From NCBI GenBank assembly GCA_017546245.1, contig JAFYXI010000041.1, forward strand, positions 1 through 64,000: a stretch of DNA of 64,000 bases, read 5' to 3'. Positions 2,409-17,550 of this stretch are shown here, one piece after another; position 1 is the first letter of the stretch; each line of letters opens with the position of its first letter. Source of the DNA: Clostridia bacterium (GTDB lineage: Bacteria > Bacillota > Clostridia > UBA1381 > UBA9506). The position numbers and the translations under genes are program-made. The notes under the pieces are model-generated. The model had not been told where the DNA came from. It saw only the letters and a program-made list of their open reading frames with translations, and searched no databases.

Positions 2409-3548
2409 ATGCATACGGGATACAATCGCAGAAAACAACGTTTTTTAAGCAGAACTTACACTTTTCGCCATTTAAAACGTTCTTTTTATGCGATTATTTT
2501 TATTATTTGCTCGATTGTGTCAATTCTTCTTTTTTCATCTGCAACGCATAAGACAAGCTTATGGGCAAATACCAACGCGCTAACCCTTTGTCTGCGTTCG
2601 GTTTTTCCTATGCTGCCCGATAATTCTAAAATCGTTTTGCCAAATAAATACGATATTATAAATTCTGTTTTTCCCGTTATCACTTCAAACGATGCGATGG
2701 CAAAAAAATATGCCGCCAAGTGGGATATGAGCATAAGAGCCAAGCGCACGAATAAAAAGAACAGCGAAATCGAACAAAAAACAGAACAAATCAACAATAT
2801 AAAGGTTCAGACCTTAAGTATGGCTGCAAAGGGGCTTACATTTAATAATGCAACAGAATATGCCGTTGATGCAAACACACTTTTAAACACACCTTTAAGC
2901 TTTGGTTCTAAAAAAAACGAGCCGCGTGTTTTAATCGTACATACACATACATCAGAGGCATATGCCGACAGTCCCGGCGGACGCAGTACTGACGACAGTC
3001 AAAATGTCGTCAGAATAGGTAAAGAAATAGCAGATTCGCTTAACCGCGCAGGAATTATAACCATTCACGACACAACTAAAAATGACCAGCCGGACTATAA
3101 CGGTTCATATAAAAACGCATTGAGTGTTATACAAAAAAATCTGCTTGCACATCCGTCATTAGAAATAGTTTTGGATATCCACCGCGACTATACGGTGCGC
3201 GATTCAGGAACTCCGTCGGAATTACACCTAAAGCCAACCCAAACCGAAAACGGTAAAAATGCCGCACAAATTATGTTTGTTGTAGGGACTGATGCTATGG
3301 ATTTACACCATCCCGACTGGCGGCACAATCTTAGCTTTGCCACAAAAATTCAAAACAGATTAGATGAAATACATCCGAATCTGTGCAGACCGATAAACGT
3401 TCGCACAGAACGTTTTAATCAGCATATGACAAAAGGCTCTATAATTATTGAGGTCGGTTCAAGTACTAACACGCTAAAAGAAGCAATACGCGCAGGCGGA
3501 TATATTGCCGAAGCAATAGCAGATGTCATAAACAAAAGTGATAATTAA
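2409..3548 (+). CDS. spoIIP: Stage II sporulation protein P (peptidoglycan amidase/endopeptidase)
   Basis: Septal peptidoglycan hydrolase of the SpoIID-M-P engulfment complex, expected in the mother-cell membrane. An N-terminal membrane segment lies at about 25-50. The SpoIIP catalytic domain begins at about 175 with RVLIVHTHTSEAY (zinc-binding His), followed by LDIHRD and the terminal IIEVGSSTNT. The ATG has a strong AGGAGGT site. Length (379 aa) fits the family. It is not next to gpr, its usual partner in many Bacilli; it stands alone, convergent with the small DUF3343 gene. Confidence 0.93.
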   Translation: MHTGYNRRKQRFLSRTYTFRHLKRSFYAIIFIICSIVSILLFSSATHKTSLWANTNALTLCLRSVFPMLPDNSKIVLPNKYDIINSVFPVITSNDAMAKKYAAKWDMSIRAKRTNKKNSEIEQKTEQINNIKVQTLSMAAKGLTFNNATEYAVDANTLLNTPLSFGSKKNEPRVLIVHTHTSEAYADSPGGRSTDDSQNVVRIGKEIADSLNRAGIITIHDTTKNDQPDYNGSYKNALSVIQKNLLAHPSLEIVLDIHRDYTVRDSGTPSELHLKPTQTENGKNAAQIMFVVGTDAMDLHHPDWRHNLSFATKIQNRLDEIHPNLCRPINVRTERFNQHMTKGSIIIEVGSSTNTLKEAIRAGGYIAEAIADVINKSDN

Positions 3549-3682
3549 ATTCACACTAACAATATTATATGCTAATTCAATTTTAAAATCATCATGGCTT
3601 CGTTCAGCATGCCATCTCACTCAAATGAACTAATTATATCACAAACGACCTTAGTATGCAATATTGCGTTCTTGCAAATCTT

Positions 3683-3718
3683 AAAATGCGGTGCCGGAAT
3701 TTAGGCACCGCATTTTTT
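3683..3718. terminator. Bidirectional intrinsic terminator
   Basis: The stem AATGCGGTGCC / GGCACCGCATT with loop ggaattta has T- and A-tracts on both sides. It sits between convergent spoIIP and the DUF3343 gene, overlapping the stop codon of the latter. Confidence 0.85.
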
Positions 3719-3980
3719 AATAAAGCTCATAGCTTTTTGTTCCGTCAGGACTTATTAATTCTCTGTAAATATTAGTATAATTTAATCCGTATTCATCTGC
3801 TAATGATTTTAAAACCGAAAGAACACTTGTCGGACATTTAAGCGCATACGAGCATCCGTTTTTAGAAACCGATTTTGGTGTCTGAACAACCCCGGCAGAA
3901 TTAATTCCTGCTTTCGATGCCAGTCGTTTTAATCTTGATGCAGCGGTCGATGAAGAAAAAACAATAATGGCATATCCCAT
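3717..3980 (-). CDS. DUF3343 (putative Se/S carrier-like) small protein
   Basis: An 87-residue protein starting MGYAIIVFSSSTAA, with a conserved-looking core VVQTPKSVSKNGCSYALK. This pattern (an N-terminal beta strand, a PTPR/PTPK-like turn, then a Ser/Cys-Gly-Cys region) matches the DUF3343 family, annotated as putative Se/S carrier proteins. Only two cysteines are seen. A strong AGAGGGGG site precedes the ATG. No selenium or cysteine-desulphurase gene lies beside it, so its job cannot be inferred from context. Confidence 0.72.
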   Translation of the reverse strand: MGYAIIVFSSSTAASRLKRLASKAGINSAGVVQTPKSVSKNGCSYALKCPTSVLSVLKSLADEYGLNYTNIYRELISPDGTKSYELY

Positions 3981-17105: not shown

Positions 17106-17170
17106 GATATAATTGTGCCGCAACAAAAGAGCCTGCATGGTGTACCTTAATTTTATATGTAAAAAAATAC

Positions 17171-17344
17171 AAACAAAAAAAGGTGCACCGAAAGCCGATG
17201 CACCGAAAAATGCACAGCTCATAATGTCGCCAAACATAATTCAGATACAACTACTATTGTATGTGAAATAGAGCATGCATTTTTACCAGAAAGTATAAAA
17301 AAACACATACATAGCAGTTTAAAAATATGGAATTATGTTTGGCA
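17171..17344 (-). ncRNA. Candidate structured small RNA (unassigned)
   Basis: A minus-strand transcription unit of about 170 nt with no convincing protein. The predicted start near 17344 opens a 14-bp perfect stem (17330-17343 with 17229-17242). An asymmetric internal loop of 11/7 nt follows, then a second stem of about 15 bp (17304-17318 region with 17249-17265, including GTATGTG/CACATAC and G-U pairs). A 38-nt apical region closes the structure. An intrinsic terminator hairpin with T7 follows at 17174-17204. Closing stem, rod shape and separate terminator recall 6S-like RNAs, but no family is recognised. This sits in the otherwise gene-free stretch 17045-17550. Confidence 0.5.
17174..17204 (-). 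terminator. Minus-strand terminator of the candidate RNA
   Basis: The stem GGTGCATCG / CGGTGCACC (minus-strand view, one mismatch, loop GCTTT) is followed by TTTTTTTG and further T-rich sequence. Confidence 0.65.
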
Positions 17345-17350
17345 TTTTTA

Positions 17351-17379
17351 ATTATAGCATATGCAGAATAAAAAAGCAA
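17351..17379 (-). promoter_or_regulatory. Predicted sigma-A promoter of the candidate RNA
   Basis: On the minus strand TTGCTT (17374-17379), 17-bp spacer, TATAAT (17351-17356). The start would fall at the first bases of the 14-bp stem. Just upstream lies an inverted pair TAAATTTGGGTTTA (17387-17400) / TAAATCCAAATTTA (about 17450-17463), one mismatch, of unknown role. Confidence 0.6.
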
Positions 17380-17479
17380 GCGTAAATAAATTTGGGTTTA
17401 GCAAAGTGACCATAGGACATAATTACACTAAAAACACATCTTTGATATATAAATCCAAATTTATCTCCGTGTAATAGTA

Positions 17480-17510
17480 AACAGGTCGTGCTGTATAGCA
17501 CGACCTGCTT
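17480..17510 (-). terminator. Intrinsic terminator of the large SLH protein gene
   Basis: The 11-bp perfect stem CAGGTCGTGCT / AGCACGACCTG has tetraloop GTAT (or ATAC) and TTTACTATT on the minus strand, 40 bp after the stop codon. Confidence 0.75.
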
Positions 17511-17550
17511 TGGCGTTGTGTGATATATTAATTTGGTTGGCTGGCTTTAA

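Follow-up and report, generated by a model that had tools for sequence, protein, structure and literature searches.

Organization of the RNA Locus

The window, i.e., the whole stretch of DNA analyzed here (64,000 nucleotides of a Clostridia bacterium, contig JAFYXI010000041.1), carries on its minus strand, at positions 17379–17175, a promoter, a 14-bp stem, a second stem, a 38-nt loop, and a terminator with a T7 tail. The features of the locus are as follows:

17374..17379, minus strand: −35 box, TTGCTT (sequence; −35-like hexamers lie 16–18 nt from the −10 box in other copies)
17351..17356, minus strand: −10 box, TATAAT, with TGn upstream (here TGC) and a 17-nt spacer to the −35 box
17330..17343, minus strand: P1 5' strand, GCCAAACATAATTC, forming 14 perfect pairs with 17242–17229
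17304..17319, minus strand: P2 5' strand, AACTGCTATGTATGTG, pairing with 17265–17249 in a stem that includes a G-U pair and a single bulge
17303–17266, minus strand: apical loop, 38 nt
17297..17303, minus strand: U-run of the apical hairpin P3, whose U-A pairs are nearly invariant in 115 copies
17271..17284, minus strand: pseudoknot strand A, AAAAATGCATGCTC, in the apical loop, pairing with 17220–17206
17249..17265, minus strand: P2 3' strand (fold and covariation)
17229..17242, minus strand: P1 3' strand, GAATTATGTTTGGC, pairing with 17343–17330
17206..17220, minus strand: strand B, GAGCTGTGCATTTTT, in the linker, forming either the pseudoknot (with strand A) or the antiterminator (with the 5' arm of the terminator)
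17192..17202, minus strand: antiterminator 3' strand, TGCATCGGCTT, within the terminator 5' arm and loop (swap test)
17182..17204, minus strand: intrinsic terminator hairpin, followed by the T7 tail at 17181–17175
17117..17148, plus strand: partial inverted copy of the 3' part of the RNA (P1 3' strand, linker, start of the terminator; sequence)

An earlier sequence-only reading had proposed a minus-strand TTGCTT-17-TATAAT promoter, a start at a 14-bp perfect repeat, a nested second stem with G-U pairs, and a 38-nt apical loop followed by a terminator hairpin with T7. The promoter, the loop, and the terminator lie where they had been placed, the repeat is P1 with its 14 perfect pairs, and the nested stem is P2, which has one bulge besides. 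The promoter was missed by the strict rule of the promoter scan; a TGn-TATAAT-like −10 box lies at the equivalent place in other copies of the RNA, with 138 of 151 copies matching TATAAT at 5–6 of 6 positions and 118 having TGn. Folding of 17345 to 17171 yielded a minimum free energy of −54.3 kcal/mol vs. −31.5 ± 3.6 kcal/mol for shuffled sequences (z = −6.3), and none of the 200 shuffles was equally stable. A protein-coding ORF at this position was rejected, in agreement with the earlier reading, since the minus-strand ORFs of more than 60 codons traverse the terminator. It should be noted that, nearby, at 17440–17512 of the minus strand, Termite-leu was matched below its Rfam gathering threshold (27.6 bits against 51), and that the first hairpin of this segment resembles the terminator of the SLH-domain gene.

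Comparison with Rfam and the Literature

In the Rfam 15 scan of the window, only tRNA exceeded the gathering threshold, and nothing relevant was found at the RNA even at E ≤ 10. Nor did any Rfam 15 family match the copies above the gathering threshold in the window and in the dozens of copy-bearing loci scanned. In one of these loci (L035), an Rfam RT-17 RNA (49.5 bits) was found at 3266–3361 of the minus strand, about 480 nt upstream of a copy.

6S RNA was rejected as an identity: RF00013 does not match the copy, either at the gathering threshold or at E ≤ 10, and this reading is excluded because the 6S RNA of the same genome lies on another contig (G000:C47:66744-66928, 95.7 bits). The earlier reading had likewise recognized no 6S sequence here. 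The central bubble of 6S RNA, which resembles an open complex, is absent; P1 and P2 are long helices with a small internal loop between them, and the apical loop contains a hairpin and a pseudoknot strand.

No description of the RNA family was found in the reachable open literature, a scope that ends short of the 3,161 supplementary candidates of the human-microbiome survey PMC8040213, in which an unnamed version of the family may be held. As far as Rfam and the reachable open literature show, the family is a real, undescribed class of attenuating leader RNA.

Copy Number and Distribution of the RNA Family

A DNA search of relatives revealed that the window region is one among many copies with a conserved core and a common plan. 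A −35 box and TGn-TATAAT come first; P1 lies immediately past the start site and is followed by P2, a hairpin of a U-run and an A-run occupies the apex, and a short linker leads to the terminator. The core pattern was present in at least 119 stretches of GTDB species genomes, nearly all of which, among the matches listed, were gut Clostridia labelled Ruminococcus, Oscillospiraceae, Eubacterium, or Clostridia. One cyanobacterial match (L103) was discarded as due to chance, as nhmmer does not recover it. Three IMG/VR viral contigs (L199, L200, L201) also contained the core pattern. An nhmmer search over the fetched loci gave 199 matches, comprising 155 distinct near-full-length copies; in one locus (L183, 1–1100), five nhmmer matches (four covariance model matches) formed a tandem array with a spacing of about 200 nt.

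Plain MAFFT alignment of 20 copies followed by RNAalifold gave a poor consensus because P1 and P2 carry indels, and this was solved by a covariance model, R1, built from the well-aligning copies. R1 matches were found in 65 of the 95 genomes of the order and in 71 of the 291 sampled genomes of the class, with at least 11 matches in each of several class genomes and 18 in the genome of the window, which consequently has at least 18 copies. None were found in the 383 genomes sampled from the rest of the phylum, for which the number of candidates scored per genome was lower.

Conserved Stems and the Pseudoknot

In the 115 copies aligned to R1 (P1, P2, and P3), 94.0% of the cells were standard pairs vs. 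71.5% in shuffles, 34 of the 36 pairs changed on both sides, and doubly changed cells numbered 880 vs. 276 in shuffles, while slid structures were at most 57% paired. This alignment was fitted to the structure, which biases it in favor of pairing, but such fitting alone could not produce so wide a margin. All 14 model pairs of P1 changed on both sides (95.4% of cells paired), as did all model pairs of P2, in which 91.6–98.2% of cells were paired. The covariation and the conservation in relatives, which the earlier reading had named as checks on a structured RNA, are therefore strong.

The apical-loop sequence AAAAAUGCAUGCUC forms a 14-bp pseudoknot with the pre-terminator linker sequence GAGCnAUGCAUUUUU. 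This pseudoknot, absent from the model behind the alignment, had 96.1% of its cells paired and 8 of its 14 pairs changed on both sides, with 63 doubly changed cells vs. 24.8 in shuffles; slid versions were at most 61% paired. At one pair alone, 31 copies show a switch from GC to AU. Almost no variation was seen across the copies in the A-run and the two U-runs, which fits either a U·A-U triplex or one A-run pairing alternately with two U-runs; the U-run at 17297..17303, assigned above to P3, could alternatively be the third strand of such a triplex. It should be noted that, with a rod of about 28 bp and a linker of only about 8 nt, formation of the pseudoknot would call for bending at the internal loop between P1 and P2, which counts against the attenuator reading.

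Alternative Pairings of the Terminator Region

Strand B is complementary not only to strand A but also to the 5' arm of the terminator. The pairings were assessed by a swap test, in which the strands of each copy were compared with strands exchanged among 149 non-redundant copies. For the pseudoknot, a copy's own strands gave −11.25 kcal/mol vs. −10.16 kcal/mol for swapped strands (z = −9.0), and for the antiterminator the values were −13.85 and −11.17 kcal/mol, respectively (z = −14.5). The z-value for P3 was −8.6. The control combined strand A with the arm of the terminator, which are not predicted to pair, and gave a z-value of −1.2. A terminator and an antiterminator that exclude each other, as in an attenuating leader, are thus present (z = −14.5 for the latter), and the pseudoknot and the antiterminator are likewise mutually exclusive because both use strand B. 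Judged by the pairings, this shared-strand arrangement is that of a transcription attenuator.

Ribosome-mediated attenuation through a translated leader peptide was considered and rejected as unlikely, because the AUG in AAAAAUGC of the apical strand, present in 97 of the 151 copies, is missing from the other 54. The latter have AUAC, ACGC, or ACAC, which are compatible with the pseudoknot.

Genes Downstream of the Copies

A Shine–Dalgarno (SD) sequence and a start codon were found 10–45 nt past the terminator in 76 of the 151 copies, and any SD with an ORF within 110 nt was found in 104 copies, at a median distance of 21 nt; the same rule applied upstream and divergently as a control was satisfied at 29 of 155 sites. 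Signal/TM-like N-termini, called by a crude rule, were present in 37 of the 53 linked proteins of at least 120 aa vs. 102 of the 413 other ORFs of the same loci (70% vs. 25%, OR = 7.1, P = 1.6 × 10−10). BspA-type LRR_5 proteins accounted for 16 of the 88 downstream proteins, the remainder being varied (SLH, HTH, zinc ribbons, glycosyltransferase, and a family of 42–56 aa). No biosynthetic pathway stood out among the downstream genes, and the lack of a common one that would name a ligand counts against the attenuator reading. The 42–56 aa protein (MEETNYKELYYxLSxTVADxIExLTEKQxELEEMYI), for which there is no Pfam family, directly follows the RNA in several loci (L039 at 3651–3776, L202, L203, L204, L010, L047, and L126).

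In the genome of the window, 6 of the 18 copies are gene-linked, four preceding small MEETNYKELYY... proteins, one a secreted protein of 407 aa, and one a protein of 169 aa. The window copy retains all parts and has no gene after its terminator, so it does not occupy a 5' UTR position directly ahead of a coding sequence; it is an orphan lacking a target gene.

The same data bear on a stand-alone family of small RNAs, 6S-like or trans-acting, that would act on RNA polymerase or on mRNAs and whose nearby genes would be incidental. This is unlikely. Each copy comes with a promoter and a terminator of its own, the genus of the window is rich in orphans and tandem arrays, and the orphans retain their structure; nevertheless, start codons cluster 13–36 nt after the terminator, secreted proteins are enriched, a genuine 6S RNA is encoded elsewhere in the genome, and the covarying antiterminator would have no obvious use. 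The sequence-only reading of a new structured small RNA with its own promoter and terminator consequently holds as regards the structure and the lack of an Rfam 15 match, but not as regards a single stand-alone rod resembling 6S RNA: the family is large and multicopy, about half of the collected copies are 5' leaders, and both the 14-bp pseudoknot and the alternative antiterminator pairing of the linker strand had been missed. As the window copy is an orphan, "small RNA" is still a fair name for its predicted transcript.

Orphan Copies and Exchange of Rods

No obvious gene was found within 110 nt of 49 of the 151 copies, about a third, including that of the window. In the genome of the window, several of the copies without a linked gene sit between convergent genes, and many copies in its genus are orphans or form tandem arrays, with one promoter each. 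As a group, the orphans retain both the pseudoknot (z = −7.6) and the antiterminator (z = −8.0), pairings that a pure cis-acting switch would not need to keep in them, which counts against the attenuator reading; possible explanations are recent gene loss, a role in trans, or an undetected target.

In the second of these, the free strand A or B of an orphan would pair with the nascent B or A of another copy, imposing termination or read-through. We regard such action as improbable, more so than a stand-alone small RNA: A and B swapped between copies pair almost equally well (−10.2 vs. −11.3 kcal/mol), both kinds of copies coexist in the genome of the window, and A/B complementarity is kept in orphans (z = −7.6), yet intramolecular pairing should be faster and pairing within a copy is measurably preferred.

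The rod of L044 (3718–3854, P1 to P1') is 93% identical to that of L032b and 66% identical to that of the syntenic L037, and the rod of L042 (3384–3524) is 94% identical to that of the window copy and 66–69% identical to those of its syntenic copies. The rod is exchanged at these two orthologous loci (two congeners), at which the promoter, terminator, and flanks stay more local; transfer of rods from copy to copy thus seems to occur, probably through gene conversion. Partial inverted 3' copies follow the terminators of orphans in the window (17117–17148, plus strand) and in L036, L037, L038, L044, and L049, and in some cases their P1 sequence type differs from that of the adjacent RNA copy.

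A mobile or repetitive element, such as a MITE-like palindrome carrying the promoter and terminator along, would account for the high copy number, for tandem arrays such as that of L183 with its five nhmmer matches, for the replacement of rods at orthologous loci of two congeners, and for the partial inverted copies adjoining orphans. However, the promoter, pseudoknot, antiterminator, fixed orientation, and start-codon distance are conserved with compensatory changes, which a selfish repeat would not need, matches in viral contigs number only three, and no transposase was noted among the neighboring ORFs. This explanation is the least probable of those considered and, in view of the parts conserved with compensatory changes, was rejected as the sole one.

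Proposed Mechanism

The homology of the copies, their structure, the pseudoknot, the antiterminator complementarity, and the position ahead of genes are established at the sequence level, and the RNA of the window is probably an orphan of a new transcription-attenuating, riboswitch-like family of leader RNAs of Clostridia. We infer that the switch operates in cells, as well as its direction and its dependence on a ligand. Transcription would start a few bases before P1 from a sigma-A promoter at a fixed position, and the nascent RNA would fold into P1–P2 with the apical hairpin P3. Strand B, emerging just ahead of the terminator, would then have two possible partners. Joining the apical strand A in the 14-bp pseudoknot, to which the nearly invariant U-run/A-run/U-run may add a U·A-U triplex, would leave the terminator free to form, and transcription would stop; with the pseudoknot unformed, B would instead bind the 5' arm of the terminator to give the antiterminator, and RNA polymerase would enter the gene about 20–30 nt downstream. 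Which partner is taken would depend on a signal to the P1/P2/P3/pseudoknot domain; a small ligand is the most likely candidate, and a protein or RNA is possible. From the window copy, a short RNA of about 170 nt, ending at the terminator, would be expected.

A broader proposal, that this is a riboswitch class of gut Clostridia in which a signal sets the surface repertoire through a U·A-U-triplex pseudoknot, with orphans acting in trans and rods being exchanged, is doubtful as a whole.

An abundant regulatory RNA, present in 65 of the 95 genomes of the order and 71 of the 291 sampled genomes of the class, thus lacks an Rfam entry, and in gut Clostridia it precedes genes for secreted proteins, BspA-like ones among them. 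A ligand, if found, would name a signal used by these little-studied bacteria, and the R1 covariance model together with the copies makes the ligand idea directly testable.

Comparison with Known Regulatory RNAs

The family shares with 6S RNA (RF00013) a long rod-like RNA with its own promoter. What sets it apart is the pseudoknot and the antiterminator, together with the gene that lies downstream of half of the copies. Type III antitoxin RNAs are similar in that a pseudoknotted RNA and a terminator are followed by a gene; ToxI is a short tandem-repeat RNA before the toxN gene, and no toxN-like gene was found among the families listed (25 of 60) for the 88 downstream proteins. T-box leaders (RF00230) are terminator/antiterminator leaders of the same bacteria, but Rfam finds T-boxes separately in the same loci, none of them overlapping a copy.

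The c-di-GMP-I riboswitch (GEMM) occurs in many copies per genome and regulates surface and secreted proteins. The present family is similar in being multicopy and in its surface and secreted targets but differs in lacking an Rfam match and in its genomes: GGDEF proteins were present in 15 of the 19 motif-rich genomes and were not found in the other four, which are drafts, some near-complete, in which an absence of GGDEF is not final. On these counts, c-di-GMP is disfavored as the ligand and is unlikely as a general signal.

U·A-U triples are contained in the SAM-II and preQ1-II riboswitches. Compared with riboswitches having a terminator/antiterminator platform and a pseudoknotted aptamer, the family differs in lacking an Rfam match, in having mixed surface and secreted targets rather than a pathway, and in its many orphans, with up to 18 or more copies per genome; it resembles them in being a leader before an SD sequence and a start codon, in ending in an intrinsic terminator, and in the mutual exclusion of the pseudoknot-linked and antiterminator pairings.
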